Shown here: piece after piece, positions 27,722-64,000 of the stretch | Layout of the letters: the number at the start of each line of letters is the position of its first letter | Numbering within the stretch: position 1 is the first letter of the stretch | Assembly: GCA_014904985.1 (NCBI GenBank) | Contig: MU129027.1 | Location: forward strand, 129,533-193,532 | Length of the DNA: 64,000 nucleotides | Reading direction: 5' to 3' | Source of the DNA: Hydnum rufescens UP504 | Taxonomy: Eukaryota > Basidiomycota > Agaricomycetes > Cantharellales > Hydnaceae | The notes under the pieces: generated by a model | Databases searched by the model: none | Seen by the model: only the letters and a program-made list of their open reading frames with translations | What the model was told of the DNA's origin: nothing | Position numbers and translations under genes: made by a program

Positions 27722-28315
27722 CGGTATTCCACCTCAGTCCACTCTATTGTTTGTAGCAATGAATACAATCACTGATGCTCGATTGGCCTCGTCACTTACA
27801 GAAGACCGAAAGATACTGGAGAGCACACCAGAAACACAGGATAGTAAATACAATCACCGTACTCGATAGGATTCGCTATCAAAAGATAAGGAGATGTTGG
27901 GACGTCGCTGTCTCAAGCAAATATGGATGTGAAAGAATGTCCCACGAAAGGACGTTGGTCGAAAAATTCCTGTGTAAGACACAGTGGTCCCAGAGTAATC
28001 TGAATCGAGTTCAAACATGTCGCCATCGCGAACAAGTTTGGCTGCGAAGTGCACCAAAGAGACGATCCGCGTTGAAATCCTCCCCTTTCGGTGAAGAGAT
28101 CAAGAGACCAAGGCATAGCGGAAATCGCTCAACCCCTGCGACGGTTCCAACCACCCGGACAAAAAAAAAGGCAACCATTCCCCCCTCCGCGCATATACAT
28201 AACAACATATGTGGGCATCTCCGGGGAGTGAACACTTGTGTGAACAGAGGTATGCTCCGAGTAGGGCGTTTTCTGGTACGTCGCTCGACGAAGTTATCGC
28301 CGGACCCAGCTAGAG
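27722..28315. other. Unresolved stretch
   Basis: Open frames on both strands (plus 27,775-28,332; minus 27,854-28,319) overlap and neither shows a family motif. The minus-strand run VHFAAKLVRDGDMFELDSDY looks protein-like but stands alone. Confidence 0.3.
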
Positions 28316-28740
28316 TCAATCAAGAGGGATAGGATTATACTCAGACTTTAGCCCGCTCGCGATATTGGATGTGCCCGGGGGCAGCTTCCTGTACGTAGCG
28401 AGCCTCGCAGCCTTGGGACCGCTGTGGCTTGGCGTGGTGAGGAAAGAAAATCTCCGGAAGATCCCGGGGTCATCTGCTCCCGCACCTTCAATTTTCTGCG
28501 TATAATACCCCGTCTGATCTTTTTCGGTCGTTCTTGGGATAGCCATCGGCTCAATGGATTCGAAATGAACTCTTATTCTCAACCTGACTGTAAAACTGCG
28601 AATTAGGATATGCATTGCCATAATTTAGTGGAGGCTGGTAAGAGCCTGCCTAATAATGGGGAGGAATTGCCACACCGCAAAGGGATACAGCGGCAAGGAT
28701 TTAAGGAAAGCCAAATATTAGCTGTGGCGGTCACGATTCG
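28316..28740 (-). CDS. Hypothetical protein, possible C-terminal exons
   Basis: On the minus strand an exon-like stretch reads GSYQPPLNYGNAYPNSQFYS (about 28,650-28,590) after an acceptor-like TTATTAG. A following frame reads EKDQTGYYTQKIEGAGADD and ends SEYNPIPLD at the stop at 28,316. Tyr/Pro/Asn richness suggests a low-complexity protein. I cannot name it or define its 5' end. Confidence 0.28.
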
Positions 28741-35172: not shown

Positions 35173-38100
35173 ATGGCATCCAAAGACCCGCTGAACCCAG
35201 CGGACATGCGCCAAGTGTATATTTCAGGTATGCCATCTAGTACTTACAGAACAGCAATTTGCATCGAACCAACCTATTTGGCCCTCGCAACAGAGGCCAG
35301 ATGTAACAGCCGTCGTCTACGTTCATCGAAACAATATCGCCTTCACTTCACCATTCAGCCCCCCGCCACCATCATTGGACTTCGTTCGTCCAAGTCACAG
35401 TACGTCAAAGCAGCACATGAGACTGCGATGTGGAAGGATCCCTTCGGGGATGAGTTGTAGGTCTCCTTCACGCACGTATAATTGGTCGCCCTTCATTCAC
35501 ATTCTTTCGGATCGGCAGCACGGTGACTGCAACACCCATCGATTGCAGAGTGATTATAGATTTGCGCGAGCACCATTTAGGGCGTTCGAGCCGGATCGTC
35601 GCATCGTGTAGTTTGGATCTCTCCGCGACAGACAAGGGTGAGCTGCATATGTTTATGCGCAGTGAGGGCCATGCTCACGCGCCGTCTTTATTCCTGCAGA
35701 GATATGCCTCGATTTGAAGGGTGACGCGAACGACAAATTCGGAGAATTGACAATATCTGTGGCATCCTCTCTCGCGTCCTCCAGTGATGCTGTCCAGAAG
35801 GCCAACCGGGCTACCCAACAGCTGGGGTCAGGACTAAGCAAGGTCAACGACGCCAGCCAAACTATCACCACCCTTGCAACAGAAATCACACCCGCTTGGC
35901 AGTCCTTGTTGAATCGCCTTGAAGCCCTTGTGAAGATTGCCGATACGGTCGCCGAGGCACGTTTCATCCCGAATTACTTGTGCCCCACGACTGCTAAGAA
36001 GTATTTACAAACAGGTTCACCCCTGGATTAAGGTAGCATGGGGAGTTGTCTCAGCAGCGTATAACGTACGATTAGACTCAGATTGTGTATCTTTACGGTC
36101 TATGACTGATGTTCCATTAGATCGCTTCCGACCAAAGTGCCCGAGACGCCAAAGTGATGGGTTTAGTCCGGACTATGGCGGATAGCTGCTCCTTTGCCGA
36201 TGAAGCCGAGGAGTTGAAGAGGCGCTCGGAAAGAGATCGAGACATCATCAACCAAATACTGCGCCAAGTAATGGAATGTGCGTATTTCATTCGAGACTAT
36301 TGCAATAAGTCTTTCGGTATGTGGAATCTCGCATATTCTACTTAATCCAAGACTGATCAGCATAAGCCACAGTCAAACGTATCGTGGAGAACACAGTTTC
36401 TCCTATGGACCCAAGGATCGATGACTATAAGGGGACCCTGGAGACCCTCCGACAGAATCTAGTTGATCATGCCAACATACAATGCTCCATCATTACACAT
36501 CGCGTCTTAGAGCTTGGGACTGAAGTCCGTAAGTGCTTCTTGAAGGTCATCGGTCAAAAAGCTGCGTTCTAAGATGGTCCACAGGGGACTGGCAGGTACT
36601 CAGCGAAATGAAATATGCCCCAGAGGCCCATCACGCTCTAGATAAGGCGTGCTTACCAGGTACGCGTACGGAGATCATCAACACTATACTGTGCTGGGCT
36701 CTTGGGGGGAATCCACCGTCGTCCGATCCGAGCAACCCAATAGAGTTGGGTTCCAACGAATCATCTCGTGTCCTTTGGTTGTGCGGTACGGCGGGTGCGG
36801 GGAAATCGTCGATCCTTCGCTCATGCGCGAAACGCATTTCTGAACTTGAACGCAAGGGGGCATACTATGGCTTCAACAAAAATGAACCACGCGCAAACCT
36901 GACCAACCTATTCAGTACGATCGCCCGTGACCTCGTCGAACTCGATGACTCCCGGAAGCAGCGCCTTATCAATGCCATCAAGAAAGACATCGCGATACGA
37001 ACGACCGATAACTGCAAATTGCAGTTCGAGCACTTTATCATTGCATCATTCAAGGATGATCAGGCCTGGGGGGAGACCATTATTTTCATCGACGCATTTG
37101 ATGAATCTGGGGATGGCCTGGCTCGCGCCGACGCACTCGCCATTCTAACAAAGCGAGCGTCAGAATTCCCTCCGGGTCTTCGAATCGTCGTCACCTCGAG
37201 ATATGAGCCCGATATTCAAGATGCGCTGCGGTCTCCACTACCCTTGGTGTTGACATCATGCTTGTAGACGACGCCCCCAAGCATCAGACCTCACGCGATA
37301 TTGCGAAGTATGTGTACAGTGAATTTACAAATGAATTCCGAGAGAGGCACGAGACGGAACTCAGGGATCTCATTCGGAAGGCTGGAACATCCTTTCAGTG
37401 GGCTGCTACCGCCTGCCGCTTCATTCGCGATAGTAAAGCTGGCGTGCGTCTGGAGGAGCGGATTGCGAAGGTGCTGAGTAGTGATGACAGGCTGTATGGG
37501 CTGTATAGCACCGTTATGAAAGCGCACTGCGATCCATCGATGGAGATAGAAGTAAAACGAGTCAAGTCGATTCTAGGCCGAATCATATGCGCTCAGGAGC
37601 CACTATCATTCCAGGCCCTTGTGCACCTAGTTCCACCAAACTCTATCCTCACTCCAGGTGACCCAGAGGACAACGAGGTACAACGAGGGATTGTGAAGCA
37701 TCTTGGCTCGCTCCTTAGTGGTACACACAGTGACCATCAGCCGATTGTGCCTCTCCACTCGTCTTATCGCGACTTCTTGTGTGACCCAGAGCATAACCAA
37801 GATTTTTGCATAAACAAAGATGAAGCAAATCAGGACATGGCCCTGGCATGCTTCCATGTGATGGACCAGATGTTGACCTTCAATATCTGTCAATTTCCGA
37901 CATCGTTCCGTCGCAATGCCGACATCTCCAATATTAAGGATCTCCGGGAAAAACACATCCCTGATTATCTGTTTTATGCTTGTCGATTCTGGGGTGTCCA
38001 TGTGTCCGCAACACTGAGTGGCAAGTTTGCTCAGAAATGCATGGAGTCATTCTTTCAGAAGGATTTCCTACACTGGTTGGAAGTGATGAGTGTTATGGAT

Positions 38101-40503
38101 AGCTCTGCTCAAATTGCATTAGCCTCTCTTAGTGCCTCTCATGTAAGCATGGCTCCAATTTGAGTCCCTGCTGAAGCAGTGGACTGATTCTTAACATGCA
38201 TTCCCTAGATTCCTGGGGACCTTGTTGAACTGCAACAGGATGCCATGCAATTCATCTTGATGTTTGCAAGTGCCATTGCAACAAGCATGCCTCACATCTA
38301 CCTCTCTGGTTTGACATTTGCTCCCATTTCATCCCTGCTATATCAGAGATGGCAGGGTCAGTTTCCAGGAGTTGGAAGACTTGTTCAGGGACAACTTCAG
38401 CACTGGCCAAATATCATGCTGATTTTAGAAGGACACCAGTCTAGTGTATCATCAGTTGCTTTCTCCCCTGATGGGAAGCAGATTGCTTCTGGCTCCTGGG
38501 ACCAGACCATCCAACTCTGGAATGTGGAGACAGGTGTGAGCATTGGCCAGCCAATGGAAGGGCATCATGATTCCATCTTGTCTGTTGCTTTCTCCCCTGA
38601 TGGGAAGCAGATTGTTTCTGGCTCTGCAGACAAGACCATCTGACTCTGGAATGTGGAGACAGGTGTGAGCATTGGCCAGCCAATGGAAGGGCATCATGAT
38701 TGGATCAAGTCCATTGCTTTCTCCCCTGATGGGAAGCAGATTGCTTCTGGCTCTGATGACAAGACCATCCAACTCTGGAATGTGGAGACAGGTGTGAGCA
38801 TTGGCCAGCCAATGGAAGGGCATCATGGTTCCATCAGGTCCATTGCTTTCTCCCCTGATGGGAAGCAGATTGCTTCTGGCTCTGATGACAACACCATCCA
38901 ACTCTGGAATGTGGAGACAGGTGTGAGCATTGGCCAGCCAATGGAAGGGCATCATGATTCCATCTTGTCTGTTGCTTTCTCCCCTGATGGGAAGCAGATT
39001 GCTTCTGGCTCTGCAGACAAGACCATCCAACTCTGGAATGTGGAGACAGGTGTGAGCATTGGCCAGCCAATGGAAGGGCATCATGGTTCCATCATGTCCA
39101 TTGCTTTCTCCCCTGATGGGAAGCAGATTGCTTCTGGCTCTGATGACAAGACCATCCAACTCTGGAATGTGGAGACAGGTGTGAGCATTGGCCAGCCAAT
39201 GGAAGGGCATCATGATTGGGTCAGGTCCATTGCTTTCTCCCCTGATGGGAAGCAGATTGCTTCTGGCTCTGATGACAACACCATCCAACTCTGGAATGTG
39301 GAGATAGGTGTGAGGATTGGCCAGCCAATGGAAGGACATCATGATTGGATCAGGTCCATTGCTTTCTCCCCTGATGGGAAGCAGATTGCTTCTGGCTCTG
39401 ATGACAACACCATCCAACTCTGGAATGTGGAGAGAGGTGTGAGGATTGGGCAGCCAATGAAAGGGCATCATTATTCCATCACGTCCATTGCTTTCTCCCC
39501 TGATGGGAAGCAGATTGCTTCTGGCTCTGCAGACATGACCATTCAACTCTGGAATGTGGAGACAGGTGTGAGGATTGGCCAGCCAATGGAGGGCATCATT
39601 ATTCCATTATGTCCATTGCTTTCTCCCCTGATGGGAAGCAGATTGCTTCTGGCTCTGCAGACAGACCATCCGACTCTGGAATGTGGAGACAGGTGTGAGC
39701 ATTGGCCAGCCAATGGAAGGGCATCATAATTCCATCATGTCCATTGCTTTCTCCCTGATGGGAAGCAGATTGCTTCTGGCGCTGCAGACAGACCAATCCG
39801 ACTCTGGAATGTGGAGACAGGTATGAGCATTGGCCAGCAATGGAAGGACATCACGATTGGATCAGGTCCATTGCTTTCTCCCCCTGAGGGAAGCAGATTG
39901 CTTCTGGCTCTGATGACAAGACCATCTGACTCTGGAATGTGGAGACAGGTGTGAGCATTGGCCAGCCAATGGAAGGGCATCATGATTTCATCATGTCCAT
40001 TGCTTTCTCCCCTGATGGGAAGCAGATTGCTTCTGGTTCTACAGACAAGACCATTCAACTCTGGGATGTAGAAACAGGTATGAGCATTGGCCAGCCAATG
40101 GAAGCACATCGTGATTGGATCAGGTCCATTGCTTTCTCCCCTGATGGGAAGCAGATTGCTTCTGGCTCTGATGACAAGACCATCCGACTCTGGAATGTGG
40201 AGATAGGTGTGAGCATGGAAGGGCACCATAATTACATCTCACCCATTGCTTTCTCACCTGATGGCAACCAGCTCACTTCTAGCTCTAAGGACAACACTCT
40301 CAACAGTTTGCAATTGCCCATGACAGTTTCCAAACATGTCCTCCAATACCCAGTCCATCTATTCCCACTCCCACCATCCCACTTTCAGCTTGATGATGGA
40401 TGGATTTTGGGACCCAGTCATGAACTTATTCTCTGGGTCCCTGCAGCCTACCATGCATCTCTGTGGCATCCTCACTGCCACATCATTGGGAATCCACAGT
40501 GAC
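35173..40503 (+). pseudogene. NOD-like receptor: C2-like / helical / NACHT / WD40 (NWD type), lesioned
   Basis: A fungal STAND NTPase of the HET-E/NWD type, a class used in non-self recognition. The ATG at 35173 leads into a C2-like beta-rich domain (DCRVIIDLREHHLG, DLKGDANDKFGELTISVASS), then a helical segment (35,760-36,570). The NACHT domain has Walker A GTAGAGKSS at 36,785-36,811 and Walker B IIFIDAFDES at 37,079-37,108. A winged-helix/linker region reaches 38,160 and, after an intron, a WD40 C-terminus starts near 38,215. Lesions: a one-base loss near 37,247 joins SPLPL to VDIMLVDDA in different frames with no room for an intron; TGA at 38,641; single-base indels near 39,589, 39,661, 39,755 and 39,890; TGA at 39,927. 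The last unit and a tail end at 40,502. Either a pseudogene or partly assembly error in repeats. Confidence 0.83.
38440..40300 (+). repeat. WD40 repeat array, about 15 units of 129 bp
   Basis: The core TTTCTCCCCTGATGGGAAGC recurs at 38,460, 38,589, 38,718, 38,847, 38,976, 39,105, 39,234, 39,363 and 39,492 at exact 129-bp spacing. It is then shifted by indels at about 39,620, 39,748 and 39,874, and again at 40,007 and 40,135, with a diverged last unit at 40,253. Each unit encodes 43 aa with AFSPDGKQIASGS and TIQLWNVETGV. Residues vary mainly at three places: after GHH, before SxAFSPDG, and around SGSxDxT. The array is nearly free of CpG. Confidence 0.93.
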
Positions 40504-41744: not shown

Positions 41745-43040
41745 TATGCTGGGGCATGATTTGGTACCTAAGTAGGTACCAGACACTATTGGGGCCCCAG
41801 TCCACCACTTTGGTTGTGGCTTGGGTGCTGATTAGGGCCCCATTGGGGCCTTATTGGGCCAACTTCCAGTCAACAGCTGTGCTGGATCACATAATTATGT
41901 ATGATTATTTATTTATTTATTTATTACTATACACATATTATCCCCCACCACCACAGGGGGGGGTTACATGTCCCCACCTGGTGGAGCCACACAACATGGT
42001 GGCCACATCCCTCATTCTTGCAGGTGTTTGGTTGGTTGGGTCATGGGTTTTTGTGTTGTGTCTTTGTCGGCAGGGTTTTGCTTGGGGCTTGGTGCAGTGG
42101 TGGGCTGGATAAGGTCCTAGATTGATAAATAGTATGTTAGTAAAAGAAGAGAAAGGCCATGCAAAAGGAGCAGCCTGTGCTGCTCCTTTTGTGTGGCCAG
42201 GTGTTATAATTGCCTTAAAAATTGCCACACCTGCTGCAGCAGGTGTGGCTCTCCTTTTCCTCTGTGACTTCATTCATTTGTGTGGTTGTGCATACTCACA
42301 TGTGGGGGATCCTGGTGGATTGGCGGATTTGGGCTCATGGTGGTGTGGCTTCATGTGTTGGCTGGAATAGAAAATATGTTAGTCAAATTAAATCTCACAC
42401 AAAAAGAGCAGTGACTGCTGCTCTTTTTGTGCATTTGTAGCTATTAAGAAATACTTTTATAAGGCCACACACCCACCACAGCGGGTGTGTGGTGCCATGT
42501 TTTATCCATCATTGTGTCAGTTGTGGGTGTTTGGGGACTGGGCCCTTGGGTCAGGTCCTGGCTCTCAGACAGGGTTCTGGGTGGCTGCATATGTTGTCAT
42601 TTTGGCTTGGACTCATTTGTTGGGTGGTTTTGCACAGTGAGGGGAGACCTAGAATAAAGAATAATATGTTAGTATAAAATAAAATATAAAATAAAAACAC
42701 AAGACAGCACCAAAAGAGCAGCTTCTGCTGCTCTTTTGGCACCAGTGGGATTAGATGTACCTGATGTTATCACACCTGCCAAAGCAGGTGTGTGGTATGA
42801 GGTTTGGTTGATCATCATATTTGGGGGCCAGGCACTCAGGGCTTGGGCTGTGCATCAAATGTTGTGCTGGGGGTTGGTCATGTCCCCATTGGGTGGGCTT
42901 TTGCATGGGGAAGGGAAGGGACCTAGAACAAGAGAGGATAGTACATTAGTAAAAAGAAAAAGGAAAACAGAGTGGTGCCAAAAGAGCAGCACAAGCTGCT
43001 CTTTTGGCACTGGTGGGATTAGATGTTATAGAAGAAGGGT
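41745..43040 (-). mobile_element. Old, CpG-depleted fragment of the hairpin-intron element
   Basis: The left end resembles the termini of the two other copies: paired TAGGTACC boxes near 41,765-41,790, a GGCCAACTTCCAG / GCTGTGCTGGATCA block, (ATTT)n, and a CCCCC...GGGGGGG hairpin near 41,942. Four modules follow, reading on the minus strand. The intronic hairpins lie at about 42,158-42,188, 42,398-42,432, 42,706-42,742 and 42,974-43,010. On the minus strand each is followed by TACTAAC or a variant and a TAG acceptor (near 42,117, 42,370, 42,655 and 42,922). CCACAC hairpins lie at about 42,220-42,250, 42,461-42,494 and 42,770-42,795. CpG is almost absent, unlike the copy at 52.6-57.3 kb. The right part is missing. 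Confidence 0.8.
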
Positions 43041-52629: not shown

Positions 52630-52637
52630 TCCAGGAC
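52630..52637. repeat. Target-site duplication, left copy (TCCAGGAC)
   Basis: Identical to 57,347-57,354. Together with the flanking GACT and GTGTTCTCC it rebuilds the uninterrupted retrotransposon codons for DFQDVFS. Confidence 0.88.
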
Positions 52638-53147
52638 AGGCTGGTCAGTCACATAGGGGACCTAATTTAGGTACCACTTTCAGGGCAGAAAATGGTACCT
52701 AAGAGGTCCCCCAGACCTTTGGCCGAAATCAAGCCATTCCAATTCAGTTTTTTTGGCCATCTATCGGCCAATCCATGGCTGTGCTAGATTATTTGTTTAT
52801 TTACTATTGTTTGTTTACTATTTATTATTATTATTATTATTATTATTACTACTACTATTATTATATACATATTAGCTATACATATTATGCTATATACATA
52901 TTATCCCCCCCCCCCTGGGGTTTGCCACCACAGGGGGGGGCATAGTTCATGCAGGCCACACACCTGCATATACCACCACACCCACCGCAGCGGGTGGGGT
53001 CCATATGCCCTGGTTGGGGTCGGTTCCATTTGGGCACTCCCTCGAAGGGGTCGGTCTTCATTTGCAGGGCTTCATTTGCGGTAATTGTTTGCCACGTCTC
53101 GTTTGGCGGGTTCTGCTTGGGGGCTTGCAGGGGTTCTGGTTCAGAAT

Positions 53148-53310
53148 CTAGAGAAATAAATGATGAAATGTTAGTAGAACAGCAATGCAGTGCAAAAAGA
53201 GCAGCCTATGCTGCTCTTTTTGCACCACAAGAATAAGAAATAAAAAAAATAAAAGAGACATACCTTTGTAGTACCCCACACCCGCTGTGGGAGTGTGGGG
53301 TACTGGGACC
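53148..53310 (-). other. Hairpin-intron module L3
   Basis: Read on the minus strand: outer hairpin GTACCCCACAC...GTGTGGGGTAC (53,275-53,308), then AAAG|GTATGT at 53,263, intron hairpin GCAAAAAGAGCAGC/GCTGCTCTTTTTGC (53,193-53,224), TACTAACA near 53,180 and the acceptor TCTAG ending at 53,148. Intron-like length 116 nt. Confidence 0.8.
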
Positions 53311-53434
53311 GTGTACTCCAGGTCATCCGTATGACTGGTCGTATGGGTCTTCTCTGTGCCCCGTCATTCGGGCGTCGATAAGTGGGGTTGTGGGGGGTTT
53401 TGTGTCGGTATTCATTTGCAAAGAGACTCGAGAA

Positions 53435-53583
53435 CTAGATGATATGACTTTTAAATTAGTTAAAAATTAAAGAACACGCAAAAAGAGCAGCTTTCGCTGC
53501 TCTTTTTGCATGGCTGTAGGTAGTGGGGGGGAGGAACTCACCTGATATGGAACCACACACCTGCTGTGGCAGGTGTGTGATTC
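53435..53583 (-). other. Hairpin-intron module L2
   Basis: Minus strand: outer hairpin CACACACCTGC/GCAGGTGTGTGG (53,551-53,580), ATCAG|GTGAGT at 53,541, intron hairpin (53,477-53,510), AACTAAT near 53,455 and the acceptor ATCTAG ending at 53,435. Length 107 nt. Confidence 0.8.
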
Positions 53584-53639
53584 CTGGCGTGTCATTTGAC
53601 ACGGTCGCATCCTCGTTTGGCGCGGTGCCGTATATCGCA

Positions 53640-53890
53640 TCGTTGGGTTGCTGTGTTGCGTTCCCGTGCGTCATGCTGCCATGTCGTGTTGCCATGCATC
53701 GCGCTGCAGTCACGTTGCTGTACACTGTGCTGCCGTGTCATGTTGCCATGTGTCACGCTGCGGTCGCGTTGCCGTACGCTGTGCTGCTGTGTCGCGTTGC
53801 CGTATGTTGCGCTGCCGTGTCACGTTCCCATGTGTTGTGCTGCCGTGTCACATTCCTGTGTGTTGGGTTCCCGTTTGGGCTCTCGTTGTG
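53640..53890. repeat. Degenerate minisatellite of about 24 bp between modules L1 and L2
   Basis: Variants of GTGCTGCCGTGTCACGTTGC recur about nine times with CpG-rich content. It lies in the exon-like space between two modules. A similar but shorter run is at 61,990-62,050 in the second copy. Confidence 0.7.
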
Positions 53891-53900
53891 AGGCCTCAAT

Positions 53901-54042
53901 CTATAATAAATAAAGGCACGTTAGTAAAAAAATTCCAAAGCAGCGCAAAAAGAGCAGCTTTCGCTGCTCTTTTTGCACATTGTATCTACTAAAAAAAATA
54001 CTCACCTTGTGACCACACACCCGCAGAGGCAGGTGCGTGGTC
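53901..54042 (-). other. Hairpin-intron module L1
   Basis: Minus strand: outer hairpin overlapping the palindrome flank (54,010-54,040), ACAAG|GTGAGT at 54,005, intron hairpin (53,943-53,978), TACTAACG near 53,925 and the acceptor TATAG ending at 53,901. Length 105 nt. Confidence 0.8.
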
Positions 54043-54079
54043 ATGCGGTTGCCTTTTCGGGCAGTTGCTTGTTGTGGTT

Positions 54080-54775
54080 GCGGAGATAGGAAGCAAGATG
54101 CAGATTCAACACCGGCAATTGCCGATACTCAAGAAGCGCCCAAGTGCTGGTGCTGCAAGCACAGTACACAATAGTACCAAGCATGTAAATTATAAATAAA
54201 TACTATATAATAAAAAATTGTCCAGGAAAACCTGAAGAAGAGGATGGTAATGAGTCAGAGGTCAATAAGGCATGAGATGGCTAATTACAGAGTGGATTGG
54301 GCCACTTATACGCATCAGAATTGGCCCAAATTTGAATATAGTAGTGTTATATATACACTCTACATGGGCGATTGATTATCTCGGACAATAATCGCATTTT
54401 TCAATTTTTCATGCCTTCAATTCCCTAAATAGGGAATTGAAGGCGTGAAAAATTGAAAAATGCAATTATCGTCCGAGATAATCAATCACCCATGTAGGGT
54501 GTATATATACCATTACTATATTTAAATTTGGGCCAATTCTGATGTGTAGAAGTGGCCCAATCCACTCTGCAATTAGCCATCTCATGCCTTATTGACCTCT
54601 GACTCATTATCATTGGCTTCTTCAGGTTTTCCTGGGCAAATATTTATTATATAGTATTTATTTTAAATATACATGCTTGTTCCTATTGTGTACTGTGCTT
54701 GCAGTGCCAGCGCTTGGGCGCTTCTCGAGTGTTGGCAATTGCCGGCATTGAATTTCGCAACTACGCAGCCACACC
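54080..54775. repeat. Central palindrome, arms about 345 bp
   Basis: The arms mirror one another around TTCCCTAAATAGGGAA, centred at about 54,428. Arm similarity is high, with few mismatches: GGCAATTGCC near both ends, GAGATAATCAATC, TGACCTCTGACTCATTA and its complement. The centre AAATTGAAAAATGC words flank the dyad. The same palindrome occurs in the second copy near 63,329. It divides the element into two outward-facing arrays. Confidence 0.92.
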
Positions 54776-54804
54776 CAGCAACAGAAATGTGACTGCACGA
54801 CCAT

Positions 54805-54836
54805 GACACAACAGCAGTAGCAACAGCAGCAGCAAT

Positions 54837-54915
<79 letters not shown>

Positions 54916-54942
54916 GCAACGGCAGCAGCAGCAACGGCAACA
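54805..54942. repeat. CAG trinucleotide tract
   Basis: About 40 CAG/CAA-type triplets with TAG and CGG interruptions, ending 20 bp before the outer hairpin of module R1. The same tract, more broken, sits at 63,740-63,845 in the second copy. Confidence 0.92.
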
Positions 54943-54961
54943 GTGCATGACCACGACCACG

Positions 54962-55102
54962 CGACCACACACCCGCTGATGCGGGTGTGTGGTCATAAGG
55001 TAAGTTTTATCTCAATAGATACAATAGCGCAAAAAGAGTAGCACAAGCTACTCTTTTTGCACTGCTTTCAATTCTTCTACTAACATACTTTTATTATCAT
55101 AG
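54962..55102 (+). other. Hairpin-intron module R1
   Basis: Outer hairpin CCACACACCCGC/GCGGGTGTGTGG (54,965-54,992), ATAAG|GTAAGT at 55,000, intron hairpin GCAAAAAGAGTAGC/GCTACTCTTTTTGC (55,029-55,060; compensatory T/A change in the stem), perfect TACTAAC near 55,079 and CATAG ending at 55,102. Length 103 nt. Confidence 0.85.
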
Positions 55103-55322
55103 CTGATCCAGGTCATAGCCTGATCCCAGGTACCGAACGAAACCCCGCCAAACGAACCAAACTAACGACACCACGCTAAATGAACCCCACCGAACGAAAT
55201 CCTGCCAGAGCAAAACCACACCAAATGACAACGCAATACGACGAGGACGCCAGCGATGGGGACGGCCGATCAAGCAGCTCAACGACACCACGCCCAACGA
55301 CACTGCCGACATCACGCCCACA

Positions 55323-55453
55323 GAACCACACCCGCCTCAGCAGGTGTGGTTCTACATAAGGTAAGTAAGGTCTAACGGCACAAAAAGAGCAGCGAATGCT
55401 GCTCTTTTTGTGCTGCTTTTAATTTAAAACTAACACGTTATTTATTATTCTAG
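55323..55453 (+). other. Hairpin-intron module R2
   Basis: Outer hairpin GAACCACACC...GGTGTGGTTC (55,323-55,352), ATAAG|GTAAGT at 55,361, intron hairpin GCACAAAAAGAGCAGC/GCTGCTCTTTTTGTGC (55,378-55,413), AACTAACA near 55,430 and TTCTAG ending at 55,453. Length 93 nt. Confidence 0.85.
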
Positions 55454-55632
55454 GTTATCGCCTGAAGTACATACAGCAAGATGAAGACCCGCCGAACGAA
55501 CCCCCCCCCCCCCCGCAAATGACAACGCCCCCGCAAAATGAAAGCCACAAACGCACCCTGCCAAAAGAACAATCACCAAACAAAACCCAGGAATGAGGAT
55601 GCATGACACAGGACCATGGAACCCCCCAGACA

Positions 55633-55768
55633 AACCACACACCGCCGAAGCGGGTGTGTGGTAATCTTAAGATAAGTTTTTATTGCACCAAAGGAGCAGT
55701 GTACGCTGCTCCTTTCGTGTAGGTTTTTCTTTCTTTTTTACTAACATATTATTCATTTTTTATTATAG
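55633..55768 (+). other. Hairpin-intron module R3 (donor mutated)
   Basis: Outer hairpin CCACACACCGC/GCGGGTGTGTGG (55,635-55,661). The donor is TTAAG|ATAAGT, so GT is lost. The intron hairpin CAAAGGAGCAG/CTGCTCCTTTCG (55,686-55,718) has a compensated G/C pair. TACTAACA is near 55,739 and ATTATAG ends at 55,768. Confidence 0.8.
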
Positions 55769-55868
55769 TTTCTAGGTTAATGAGTCTGTGCCTGACAACC
55801 CCCAAACCCACCTGAGCCCCGTACGAAAACCCGATAGAGGAAGGCATGTGACTGCAGTATGAATGAGG

Positions 55869-56000
55869 ACCACACCGGCTTTGGCGGGTGTGGTACTACA
55901 AGGTAAGTAAAGCTACACCCCCAACGGCACAAAAAGAGCAGCAAATGCTGCTCTTTTTGCACCAGTTTTAATTTTCTAACTAATACATCTATCATTCTAG
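55869..56000 (+). other. Hairpin-intron module R4
   Basis: Outer hairpin ACCACACC...GGTGTGGT (55,869-55,894), ACAAG|GTAAGT at 55,903, intron hairpin (55,926-55,962), TCTAACTAA near 55,975 and TTCTAG ending at 56,000. Length 98 nt. Confidence 0.85.
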
Positions 56001-56110
56001 GCTCTCACTTTAAATGAAGACCCGTGAAAGGGAACTGCCCCCCCCCGAAACGATAACCCGCCAAAACCCACGATGATGACATGCCGAACAAAGACACGAA
56101 ACAACGCATG

Positions 56111-56253
56111 AACCACACATCCGCTACGGCGGGTGTGTGGTTCTATACAAGGTAAGTAACCTCGTGTACCCACAATGGCATAAAAAGAGCAGCAGATGCT
56201 GCTCTTTTTATGCTGGTTGTAATTTTTTACTAACACATTATTTATTATTCTAG
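56111..56253 (+). other. Hairpin-intron module R5
   Basis: Outer hairpin GAACCACACATCCGC/GCGGGTGTGTGGTTC (56,111-56,143), ACAAG|GTAAGT at 56,152, intron hairpin GCATAAAAAGAGCAGC/GCTGCTCTTTTTATGC (56,178-56,213; compensatory T-A for C-G pair), TACTAACA near 56,228 and TTCTAG ending at 56,253. Length 102 nt. Confidence 0.85.
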
Positions 56254-56554
56254 GTACTGCCTTACCACAAACACCAAAATGAAGACCCGCCAAAGGAACC
56301 CCCCCCAGGGAATGACAACGCCCCCGCCACACGGAAACCAACAATGTGACCCACCAAAACAAGTGCCAAATGAAACCTGCCGAACCCAAGGAGTGAAACC
56401 AGGCCAGACCACAACCCGCTACCGCAGGTGTGCCCACCCCAACAGACACTAGGGACCAGTCCAAACGACCAGCCCAACGGTGAACCACCAAGCCATGGCC
56501 CCCCTTCCCTTGAAATGGCCAGCGACGAGCCCGCCGAGTCCCGATGAAGAAGCG

Positions 56555-56945
56555 GAAGGCACCACACACCCATTAGGCCAGGTGTGTGGTGCTACTAGGT
56601 TGTTTTTTTTTTTTAAATTTCTACAGACAGTGCCACACCCGCTTGAGCGGTGTGGTGCGACTTAGTTTTTTTTAAAGTTTTCTACAGATGGTACCACACA
56701 CCCCACCCAAGTGGGTGTGTGCTACTAAGTAGTTTTTTTATTTTTTATTTTTATTTTATTTTTAAGGACAGTACCACACACCCACCCATGTGGTGTGTGG
56801 TGCTACTAAGTAGTTTTGTTATTTTTTATTTTTAAGGACAGTACCACACACCCACCCATGCAGGTGTGTGGTGCTACTAAGTAGTTTTTTTATTTTTATT
56901 TCTACGGATGGTACCACACCCACCCCCAAGCAGGTGTGGTAATTT
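56555..56945 (+). repeat. Tandem short hairpin units, about 70 bp each
   Basis: Five to six copies of a CCACACACCCACC...GGTGTGTGGTGCTACTAAG hairpin, each followed by a T-rich run and TCTACAG or AAGGACAG. They look like modules that lost the inner hairpin. The unit at 56,600 retains a T-rich tract plus CTACAG acceptor-like end. Confidence 0.8.
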
Positions 56946-57346
56946 TTTTACGAAATATTGAATTTTTAAATAAATAAATAAATAAATAGTCCCTAATTGG
57001 GCGAGTGGCTTCAACATGCATAATGGGTAACCAGAAAAGACCATAGGCAGGCCTCAAATATATGTATAATAATATAATAAAATAAATATTATAATGGAAC
57101 ACTATTATCACTGATAAGTCATATGGCCTGCTTGTCCTGCAAGTCTGAGATTCTCTAAGTCCCAGTTTCAGCCAATTTTCGGCCAACTTTTCCGGCCAAT
57201 TTTTTCGGCCATTTTGGCCATTCTGGCTAGAAGGTGGCAGGCATAAAATGCCATTTTCGGCCAGAATAGTGATGGGAACCTACTTAGGTACCATTATTGC
57301 CCAAAAGTGGTACCAACTAGGTAGGCTTAGATGACTGACCAAGGTG

Positions 57347-57354
57347 TCCAGGAC
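57347..57354. repeat. Target-site duplication, right copy (TCCAGGAC)
   Basis: Identical to 52,630-52,637 and followed directly by the continuing chromovirus frame. Confidence 0.88.
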
Positions 57355-60420: not shown

Positions 60421-63069
60421 GAGGCCCCGAGATGCATTAATGCCGTGGAGTTCGCAATCCCATACCATTCAGGACCAACCCAGTTCCTCACCGGAATCTC
60501 CCGATGGACCTCCCCGGACTGGTTTGAGGGCTTGACAACGATTCAAGGAACAACGTATTTAACAATGAGGAACAAAAAAAAAAGGAGGAAACAGGAAAAA
60601 GGAGGGTGGAGGACGAGAACAACAACTCGGAACCACTCTCGCCCTCGGCTCCTCATATCATGTGTCTTATCGTCCATGTCAATCGTCCTCATCAATCAAT
60701 CATCACCGTTCCCACCCCTCGCTGATCCGTTATGGTTGATGGGCCTCCTCCAAGTACATTGACCCTGATCCCCGCTCCGGACGACAGACCCCCACTGGAG
60801 GCCAGCTCGACCGTTCCGAGACCTGATCCCCCATCCACTCCCCGGACCTGGGACTGAGGACAAGAAACCACCTGGCAAGGAACCAGGTGCTGAGGCGTGG
60901 CTGGGAGAGAGTCTTGCCATCTCCCCGCACCGCGACAACGCATCTCCTCCGCCAGCCCAGGCCTGCTCTCCAACGCCTCCGGCCACCCGTTTGTGCGCAA
61001 GCCAGCACCTTTGCTCCCGGGCGGCTACCACCCAGTCGGAGCTGGAAGCGTCTGCTGCAGGAGCACCAGGCTGAATCATCGTCAATTGGGGACCTAATTA
61101 GGTACCATTTTCGGGCAGAAATGGTACCTAATAGGGTCCCCCAGCCGGGTAATGGCCGAAATTCGGCCCAAAATATGGCCATTCCGATTCATTTCAGCCA
61201 ATCATGGCTGTGCTGAGATATTTATTTATTTATTATTATTATTTGCTACTATAATTATAGTACATATTATGCCATATATACTATTATCCCCCCCCTGGGG
61301 TCTGCACCCACAGGGGGGCCCCATGGGTTTCCTGCTGGTCATGCACGCTGCATATCGCCACCCCGACACCGCTGCAGCGGGTGGGGTTCTTGCCCGCAGT
61401 TTGGGCCTGGTTCCCATTTGGCGGGCTCCTCAAGGGAGGCCAGGTTTTCGTTCGCAGGGCCTCCATTCCGCGTTTTCGTTCCCCAGCATGTCATTTGGTG
61501 GGGTTCAGAGGGGGGTTCGTGCCGGATTCGGTCAAGGATCTAATAGAAATAAGGAATTCAAAGTTAGTACAACCATTAATGCAACCAAAAAGAGCAGCTA
61601 TGCTGGCTCTTTTTGCGCCACCCAAGACTAAGAAATAAAAAAAACATAACTACCTTGTAGCCCGTGCATGCTGGCTCCGTCCCCATTTCTGGCTTGTATG
61701 CACGGGGCCGGTTCATACCCCGGGTCCCCCCATCATTTGGGGGTCAATAGGTGGGGTTAGGCGGGGGGTTCTTTATCGGTATTCGTTTGTGAGGCAGTTT
61801 GAAAACCTACAAAATATTAAATTTTTAAATTAGTTACGGGAAATAAGGGCCACCGCAAAAAGAGGCAGCTTTCCGCTGCTCTTTTTGCATGGCTTGTAGT
61901 AGTGAGGGGGGGCCGGGGACTTACCTTATATGAACCAAACAACCCGCCATGGCGGTGTGTGATTCGGGCCCTTATTTGGCGCGGCACATTGTCGCGTTGT
62001 TGGCGCGGTTGCCGTGTCATGTTGGCGTGTCGTGTTGCTGTGTACCGCCATGTTGTTCGTCAAGTTTCGCCAGGTTATTGTCCATGGCAATTGGGCGGCC
62101 AATCTAGAAAAAGCATGTCAGTAAAAAAAAATTCTAAAGCAGCCGCAAAAAGAGCAGCTTATCGCTGCTCTTTTTGCACCACAAGCCATAAAGAATAAAA
62201 AATAAAAAAACATGAACCTTACCTTGTAGTACCCCACACTGCTGCTGCAGGTGTTGGGGTACTGGGCCCCATAACTCCAGCTCATGGTGTGGCAGTTCGT
62301 ACAGGGCCCGTTGTTCAGGGTCGATGGTGGGGTTACAGGGGTTCTCCGCATGGGTATGTCGTTCGTCAGAAATATGATAGAATATATAAGATTGTCTTTA
62401 GATTAAGAGTTAAAGAGCCATGCAAAAAGAGAGCTTTTGCTGCTCTTTTTGGTGCTGTAGTTTACTGGGACTCCATTATAGTAGTACCACAGCACCCACT
62501 GTGGCGGGTGTGTGGTTCCGGGGGCCTCATTTGGCGGGCGGTCGCGTCCCTTGTTTGGCGTGTTGGCGCATAGGTAACGTTGCCATGTGTTGCATTACTG
62601 TATTCGCGTCTTCGTTTGGCGCATTGCCATTTGGCACGTTGCCATAGTCAACACTTGTCATGTTTGCATTCTGTATCATGTTGCCGATGTCGTGTTGCTG
62701 TGTGCTTTCCAATATGTCGGCCATGGATGTTTGGGCTCTCGTCATGCCCGTTGGACGAGGCCTCAATCTAAATAAAAAAGAGCATTATTAAAATGTTCCA
62801 AAAGCAACCGCAAAAAGAGCAAGCTTTCCGCTGCTCTTTTTGTGCTGGTGTATCTACTAGAAACAAACCACTCACTTGTGAACCCACCACCCACCAGCAG
62901 TGGGTGCGTGGTTGGCGGTGCCTTTTTGGGGCCGGTTGCTTTGTTGTGGTTGCGGAGATAGGAAGCAAGATGCAAGATTCAACACCAGCAATTGCCAAAT
63001 ACTCAAGAAGCGCCCAAGCGCCCTGCCCTGGGAGCACAGTACCACCAAAGGGCACCAAAGCATGTATAT

Positions 63070-63600
63070 TAAATAATACTATAAATACAAATTTGTACAT
63101 GAAAAACCCTGGAAGAAGAACGAATGGTAATGAGTCAGAGCTCAATAAGGCATGAGATAAGCAAATACAGATGGGTTGGGCCCCACTTCCTAAACGCATC
63201 AGAATTGCCCCAAATTTAAATATAGTAGTGTTATATATACACTCTATATGGGCCCCAAGTGAATTATCTCAGACGATCCTCCACCCTTCGATTTTCAATT
63301 TTCACGAAACCTTCCAACGCTTCCCCTATTTAGGGAGGATTGTAGGCGTGAAAAATTGAAAAATGTGAGGACTTGTCCGAATAATCAATCCACCATGTAG
63401 AGTGTATTATATAACAACAAAACACTACTGATATTTTAAATTTGGGCCAATTCTGATGCATGAGAAGTGCCAATCCACTCCCTGCAATTTGCCGTCTCAG
63501 TGCCCTTATTGGGCTCTGGCTCAATTATCATATGCCTTCTTCAGGTTTTCCTGGTTACAAATATTTATATATTAGTAATTTATTTTAAATATACAGCTTG
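63070..63600. repeat. Central palindrome of second element copy
   Basis: The dyad is centred near CCCTATTTAGGGA at about 63,329. The arms match those at 54,080-54,775 but carry more mismatches between left and right than in the first copy. Confidence 0.85.
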
Positions 63601-63739
63601 GTACTATTTGTGGCATGTGCTTGGCATGCCAGCACTTGGCCGCTTCCTTGAGTATCAGCATTGGCCGGCATTGAATTCACCAACTTACACAGGCCACGAC
63701 CCAGCAACCGAAATGCTATCACACGACCACGACACAACC

Positions 63740-63845
63740 AGCAACAGCAACAGGCAGCAGCAGCACAGCAAAACAGCGACAGCAACAGCAGCAGCAAACA
63801 GCAGCAAGCAACAGCAGCACAGCACCAGCCAGCAGCACCAACAGC
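63740..63845. repeat. CAG-rich tract of second element copy
   Basis: Interrupted CAG/CAA triplets at the same relative place as 54,805-54,942, ahead of the first plus-strand outer hairpin (63,930-63,958) and a GTAATC donor-like site. Confidence 0.85.
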
Positions 63846-64000
63846 GCATGACCATGACTGCAAATGACTCTGACATGCCATCGACCACAACCGCATGACG
63901 CACAACCGCATGACCAGCGACCACCAGACCCACACACCCCGCTGATGCGGGGTGTGTCATAAGGTAATCCTTTTGTCTCCAGTAAATTACAATAGCGCAA

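Follow-up and report, generated by a model that had tools for sequence, protein, structure and literature searches.

The window analyzed here is a 64,000-nucleotide (nt) stretch of the Hydnum rufescens UP504 genome (assembly GCA_014904985.1, contig MU129027.1, positions 129,533 to 193,532 of the forward strand). It contains an element of 4.7 kb that looks like a non-autonomous hAT-type DNA transposon, in which eight intron-like modules, each with two conserved hairpins, are arranged as two arrays that diverge from the center and point outward, three modules on the minus strand (left arm) and five on the plus strand (right arm). We interpret this element as a hAT-like transposon with two divergent units that would be spliced and non-coding and whose arrays grew by tandem duplication, and we give this interpretation, which is drawn from sequence, a probability of about 0.6. 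The anatomy taken together with splicing we consider quite likely.

The original prediction had claimed eight modules with a shared order inside a transposon with terminal inverted repeats (TIRs), and all eight were found (Table 1). Each consists of an exonic, GC-rich outer hairpin, AAG followed by a GTRAGT donor, a linker, an inner hairpin, a second linker, a TACTAAC-type branch site, about 20 nt, and a TAG acceptor. The claimed donors (GTAAGT four times, GTGAGT twice, GTATGT once, and one mutated, which is ATAAGT) and intron lengths (93-116 nt) were reproduced, and the seven junctions proposed with them match the ends of the intact introns predicted here. The outer hairpin has 13 base pairs (bp), about ACCACACACCCGC-NNNN-GCGGGTGTGTGGT, and the inner hairpin 16 bp with a 4-nt loop, GCGCAAAAAGAGCAGC-NNNN-GCTGCTCTTTTTGCGC. 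The inner stem GAGCAGC/GCTGCTC, which had been ascribed to all modules, is present in six, while R1 carries the compensated variant GAGTAGC/GCTACTC and R3 carries GAGCAGT/GCTGCTC. In a first set of 163 hairpins from 29 sources, collected by a best-match search that misses diverged hairpins such as those of R1 and R3, the outer hairpin lies 6-10 nt ahead of the donor in 104 of 128 modules. The layout recurs in other copies: complete modules occur on both strands in 23 of 31 sources, all 23 run from minus-strand to plus-strand modules, and the central palindrome is matched in other subfamilies. Within 450 bases of the element ends, AATAAA words point outward at 38 of 40 ends (130 outward and 17 inward words).

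Table 1. Coordinates of the element, its modules and related copies in the window.
Feature	Position	Strand	Remarks
Element	52637-57346		TIRs; flanked by 7-bp target site duplication TCCAGGA
Target site duplication, left copy (TCCAGGA)	52630-52636		From end-pair comparison
Target site duplication, right copy (TCCAGGA)	57347-57353		From end-pair comparison
Left TIR, CAGGCTGGTCAGTCA	52637-52651	+	229 exact left ends of the same type genome-wide
Right TIR, read from outside in, CACCTTGGTCAGTCA	57332-57346	-	From end comparison
AATAAA words, outward	52796-52826	-	Near left end
Predicted intron L3, 116 nt	53148-53263	-	GTATGT; inner hairpin 53194-53221; TACTAAC; TAG
Outer hairpin L3	53272-53302	-
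Predicted intron L2, 107 nt	53435-53541	-	GTGAGT; inner hairpin 53480-53507; AACTAAT; TAG
Outer hairpin L2	53552-53581	-
Predicted intron L1, 105 nt	53901-54005	-	GTGAGT; inner hairpin 53947-53974; TACTAAC; TAG
Outer (exonic) hairpin L1	54012-54041	-
Central palindrome	54104-54753		650 bp; two 324-nt arms, 90% complementary, 2-nt spacer
Outer hairpin R1	54964-54993	+
Predicted intron R1, 103 nt	55000-55102	+	GTAAGT; inner hairpin 55031-55058, compensated T-A pair; TACTAAC; TAG
Outer hairpin R2	55323-55352	+
Predicted intron R2, 93 nt	55361-55453	+	GTAAGT; inner hairpin 55382-55409; AACTAAC; TAG
Outer hairpin R3	55634-55662	+
Module R3, disabled donor	55672-55768	+	ATAAGT; inner hairpin 55689-55716 kept
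Outer hairpin R4	55867-55894	+
Predicted intron R4, 98 nt	55903-56000	+	GTAAGT; inner hairpin 55931-55958; CTAAC/CTAAT; TAG
Outer hairpin R5	56112-56141	+
Predicted intron R5, 102 nt	56152-56253	+	GTAAGT; inner hairpin 56182-56209; TACTAAC; TAG
Right-arm tail	56405-56945	+	Modules decay into more hairpins of the outer type, mostly with a T run after them, but with neither inner hairpin nor good donor; partly by eye
AATAAA words, outward	56969-57086	+	Near right end
Decayed left-arm fragment	41760-43010	-	Four hairpins (42163, 42401, 42711, 42979); limits by eye
Second copy, indel-rich	61067-64000		Ended by contig end; left-arm hairpins 61587, 61858, 62147 and 62812 called, ~62425 by eye

To count splice signals, we used 294 inner hairpins from 31 sources and called a module complete if a GTRWGT donor lay no more than 60 nt upstream and WACTRAY and YAG lay in fixed windows, taking the better of the two orientations. 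All three signals were present at 175 of the 294 hairpins, as opposed to 2 of 2,940 control positions drawn at random from the same DNA, each over 130 bases away from where the nearest hairpin starts; 171 modules were complete and unambiguously oriented, 167 of them distinct. Over these 167 modules the median intron is 104 nt, with 83 nt from donor to branch A (interquartile range [IQR] 81-86) and 20 nt from branch A to the 3' end (IQR 19-21). Subtracting the 36-nt hairpin from the donor-branch distance leaves 47 nt. As a rough yardstick for the host, we took 12 gaps between neighboring exon matches, consecutive in the profile, in Argonaute and RNA-dependent RNA polymerase (RdRP) genes; ten of these measure 31-59 nt and the others 83 and 113 nt. 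Removing the hairpin thus gives a distance within the range of most host gaps, and the hairpin may restore host spacing.

The signals and the inner stem also change less between copies than the intron linkers do. Substitutions were counted in three subfamilies (the 167 distinct modules) with CG, TG and CA sites excluded, the reference row uncounted and incomplete modules set aside. Splice signals were substituted at 2 of 981 sites, the inner stem at 1 of 1360 and the loops at 0 of 159, against 29 of 2719 in the intron linkers; outside the called introns the count was 350 of 27055. Signals and stem combined (3 of 2341) are about 8-fold less substituted than the linkers, with p = 9e-6 for both, 0.007 for signals and 0.0001 for the stem, values to be read in light of the relatedness of the copies, which are not independent trials. 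In the focal subfamily alone, non-CpG singletons numbered 2 across 1,991 site-copies in the signals and stem, versus 14 across 2,021 in the linker. The original prediction had named, as an outcome that would speak against it, splice motifs that vary as much as the bases around them, and this outcome did not occur.

Both hairpins show paired changes. In module families from the first set, both partners vary in 9 of the 16 inner pairs (31 families, 29 distinct rows) and in 5 of the 13 outer pairs (28 families), and for each hairpin the covariation score lies above 500 of 500 shuffles and falls when the alignment is slid. The loops are A-rich, with GNRA in 61 of 167 and the antisense class in none of the 167, and this one-sided bias favors a role in RNA over one in DNA. 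Three modules that were folded gave z-scores of -8.5 to -10.3, in each case with a hairpin of ~16-18 bp and a 4-nt loop internal to the intron. An Rfam search of the window returned no family match for the modules. The only feature to reach the gathering score lies elsewhere, a nuclear RNase P RNA gene at 27984-28422 on the minus strand (RF00009, 67.1 bits).

Several results weigh against the interpretation proposed here. Incomplete hairpins among the 294 include 59 with branch site and acceptor but without a GTRWGT donor, 28 with a donor only, 11 with donor and branch site, 6 with a branch site only and 15 with none. The count of outer pairs changing on both sides was reached by 49 of 500 shuffles. 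At non-CpG pairs, G.U and A.C mismatches number 6 and 3 events, which is not significant; a smaller set gave 8 and 3 in the inner hairpin and 15 and 12 in the outer. C.A and U.G are about equally common at GCGC pairs. Raw mismatch counts are swamped by CpG decay, and much of the G.U excess falls at the closing pair, where such decay can create it. The R3 donor reads ATAAGT in 10 of 11 subfamily-A copies and has an indel in the eleventh, and in other subfamilies most R3-related modules carry a GT donor (GTAAGT, GTGAGT, GTAAAT and others). Since subfamily A was amplified with this donor dead and the hairpin kept, the element can do without some of its introns, and a hairpin can be separated from splicing. 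Inward AATAAA words are also present at 11 of the 40 ends, and the strand bias of these words may be partly compositional because they are A-rich simple sequence. Seven of the 23 two-strand sources also switch from plus to minus, which we read as the presence of a neighboring copy. A search for a spliced retrocopy with one junction pattern and one mismatch allowed gave 0 matches and its reversed control 1, and is uninformative.

Some of these results would suit an explanation in which the palindromes act in DNA, as subterminal binding or cruciform sites for transposase or host proteins, with the splice-like words incidental. As DNA, the inner hairpin forms an almost perfect palindrome, and it persists in the dead-donor module R3; one solitary hairpin without a donor was found (see below), and G.U is not significantly above A.C. 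What such sites leave unexplained is that donor, branch site and acceptor lie in one strand sense, at fixed spacing and under constraint, that the loops are strand-biased, and that the modules of each arm face outward, as do the AATAAA words. We regard this explanation as unlikely.

The assignment of the element to hAT-type transposons is based on its ends and on those of its relatives. The TIR CANNNTGGTCAGTCA or a relative is present at both element ends, and a search of the genome (63 Mb, 539 contigs) located 229 exact left ends of the focal type and 66 of a second type, 295 in total, with none for the control patterns. In nine end pairs, target site duplications (TSDs) are 8 bp in five (four perfect, one with one mismatch), 7 bp in two (the focal copy and the copy at locus L018) and absent in two, which may not be true partners. 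Short TIRs beginning CA together with an 8-bp TSD are what we take to be the hAT-type signature. A search for hAT transposase gave 90 PF05699 matches, of which 30 were fetched; 5 contained a TIR-like word, 0 contained both ends and no transposase partner sharing the TIRs could be linked, but the fetched pieces, of ~3.2 kb, may be too short for this. Module hairpins adjoin 4 of the 30 loci (L046, L053, L054 and L056) and, in the three loci read, look like neighbors or rearrangements. At L054:1501-2100 a hAT transposase fragment abuts the truncated central palindrome of an array element, through rearrangement or insertion. The focal element itself sits in what by eye is a Ty3-like gag-pol, with the zinc knuckle CYNCQELGHISHDC in one open reading frame (ORF).

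The hairpins are abundant in this genome. The inner-hairpin pattern (24 fixed bases, at most 3 mismatches) has 12 matches in the window and none in 100 shuffles, and genome-wide there are 2,201 exact inner hairpins and 697 exact outer hairpins, with 0 for each control, the inner one being the reversed pattern. In prokaryote and viral collections the inner pattern matched 111 hairpins, spread over 4 viral and 106 prokaryote stretches, none of which has donor, branch site and acceptor together; these we take for putative bacterial terminators. The outer hairpin and the left end had 0 matches in the viral collection. To look for lone copies among the 2,201 exact inner sites, 50 listed sites were taken, of which 48 lay in fetched DNA and were inspected; 47 of these share their fetched piece with at least two other hairpins. 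The sole solitary one, L028:1314-1341, lies just outside an element end and has no donor; it may be a relic or a palindrome that stands by itself.

Array length differs between copies. L172 is a complete relative with 5419 bp between its ends, the TSD TAGAACAC and, by eye, more modules than the focal copy. At L011 a two-module block is duplicated (1250-1714 and 1827-2278, 75% identity), and neighboring units at L010 are 78-84% alike, so that in both cases examined length changed as blocks of one or two modules were duplicated. At the sites sampled, the units are multiplied in tandem blocks and are carried along by the transposon.

These observations bear on whether each intron unit is itself mobile and was repeatedly inserted until many piled up in one element, as introners would be. 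Repeated hairpin-forming introns do resemble fungal introner-like elements (PMC8469720). The modules do not pass as introners because the inspected sample held no lone intron copy; in addition, exon, hairpin and intron were duplicated as one in the blocks examined, and the TSDs belong to the whole element. We find this origin quite improbable. The original prediction had left open two possibilities, a spliced non-coding transcript or mobile splice-competent units. By sequence, the first is favored by the signals, their constraint, covariation, the AATAAA words and the lack of a reading frame, and the second is not supported, as 47 of the 48 inspected sites (of 2,201) are in arrays and the solitary one lacks a donor.

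The arms could also derive from a protein-coding gene rich in introns that has lost its coding sequence through decay, and the multi-intron layout with poly(A)-type words is indeed gene-like. Among 20 spliced arms of 11 elements, however, the longest open run was at or below the 0.05 level set by 200 dinucleotide shuffles in one and the longest ATG frame in two, which is about what chance would give; an earlier frame test with base-composition shuffles singled out 2 of 14 arms (8 elements), at 0.01 and 0.03. Pfam had no match over cut-off for seven ORFs (five from L172, two from the window). The segment between R1 and R2 had been described as closed in three frames, and stops in all three were found in the exon at 55103-55360. 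A coding reading was rejected. Introns that are constrained while the remainder varies also speak against a decayed gene, which we consider very unlikely. Least probable is a satellite-like repeat that is passively spread along with the transposon and has no RNA function, for although array length varies by tandem duplication and the exons are by eye of low complexity, constraint and covariation are concentrated in the hairpins and splice signals.

Returning to two divergent spliced units in a transposon, we propose that both start from the central palindrome and run outward, each being an array of exon-intron modules enlarged by tandem duplication. The palindrome is proposed as a divergent promoter region, for which TATA-like words in both directions are weak evidence. 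Within each intron the hairpin (16 bp, 4-nt loop, ~36 nt) would leave the 5' splice site and branch site ~47 nt apart, and the second hairpin would close the exon, usually 6-10 nt ahead of the donor. The ordinary spliceosome would remove the intron of every intact module from the outward pre-RNA, and polyadenylated transcripts would end at the AATAAA words ahead of the TIR.

The purpose of such an arrangement is the least certain part of the proposal. Many well-spliced introns might raise or protect the RNA and chromatin of the element and keep it accessible to transposase, by way of intron-dependent expression and by evading nuclear decay or spliceosome-coupled RNA interference (RNAi). In Cryptococcus, introns increase mRNA accumulation, with cumulative effects of number and position (PMC3744415), and poorly spliced transposon RNAs become templates for small interfering RNA through the SCANR complex (PMC5851062, citing Dumesic et al. 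2013). Because of these data, and because the host genome has Argonaute and RdRP genes, we put forward as a tentative possibility that the arrays keep element RNA and chromatin expressed and unsilenced; the link to silencing or expression is borrowed from other fungi, which weighs against it. A related and rather doubtful idea is that of a selfish device at the RNA level, in which self-duplicating arrays of structurally optimized introns lie in two divergent non-coding transcripts; their efficient splicing would mark the element as host-like and shield it from spliceosome-coupled RNAi or nuclear decay, with selection on the transposon raising intron number itself.

We compared the element with known systems. 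With non-autonomous hAT-type elements it shares the TIRs beginning CA and the 8-bp or 7-bp TSDs, but the focal group is long (4.7-5.4 kb) and has two divergent intron arrays. Foldback-type transposons have a large inverted structure, and the focal element likewise has one, with a central palindrome; its arms share module type and orientation rule but are not inverted copies of one another throughout. As in spliced long non-coding RNA genes there are, as predicted from sequence, exons, introns, poly(A)-type words and no reading frame, but here every intron is a variant of a single structured module, and hundreds of transposon copies contain the unit. In a mirtron or pre-miRNA intron the whole short intron forms the hairpin, whereas the focal hairpin is internal to the intron.

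Fungal introner-like elements and introners share with the modules the presence of many related spliceosomal introns per genome and U2-type signals in repeated copies, and the former have inverted repeats or predicted stable secondary structure (PMC8469720). Known introners are copies dispersed in unrelated genes (PMC4457414), and the passages available of PMC9860276 name only Pezizomycotina and ascomycetes for fungal introners. The focal modules, in contrast, are arrayed inside a non-coding transposon, in keeping with the distinction from single dispersed units that had been drawn beforehand. The internally symmetrical sister stwintrons of Hypoxylaceae are also proliferated U2 introns with RNA predicted to form a hairpin (PMC8469720), but their symmetry comes from intron-end repeats and an internal intron splits one of the splice elements. 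In our modules donor, branch site and acceptor are each contiguous, with one simple donor, a short internal hairpin with the signals outside it, and a DNA transposon as carrier. Among the titles and opening parts of abstracts listed for open literature on introners (also those with structure and those in Basidiomycota), intron arrays in transposons, stalled spliceosomes and Cantharellales repeats, no comparable element was found, although it may exist as an unnamed repeat in subscription journals or repeat databases, which lie outside this search.

Other observations concern the copies and their surroundings. Shared exon differences between copies are mostly CpG-context transitions. The copy at 61067-64000 has many single-base indels relative to other copies, perhaps because of poor consensus quality at the contig end, and the fragment at 41760-43010 is CpG-poor by eye, which fits C to T decay linked to methylation. 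A CAG/CAA repeat tract (54809-54943) in exon 1 of the right arm is also present in L172 and in the 61-kb copy; its reverse complement in L172 gives a poly-leucine ORF. At 36533-40502 an NTPase (relatives carry PF24883) is followed by a long run of near-identical WD40-like repeats, broken up over several frames, and a run of N lies at 47.8-48.3 kb. Among 29 relatives of one NTPase ORF, 7 have an organism name, in each case Clavulina sp. PMI_390.

Introns are an unexpected cargo for a transposon without genes. If the arrays are spliced, this fungus holds hundreds of natural replicas of one structured intron, and it would become testable whether introns by themselves can shield a transposon against nuclear silencing, and in what way short-intron fungi tolerate or use RNA that folds between donor and branch site. 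The arrays suggest that introns can multiply as tandem blocks within mobile DNA, and not by single insertion into genes.

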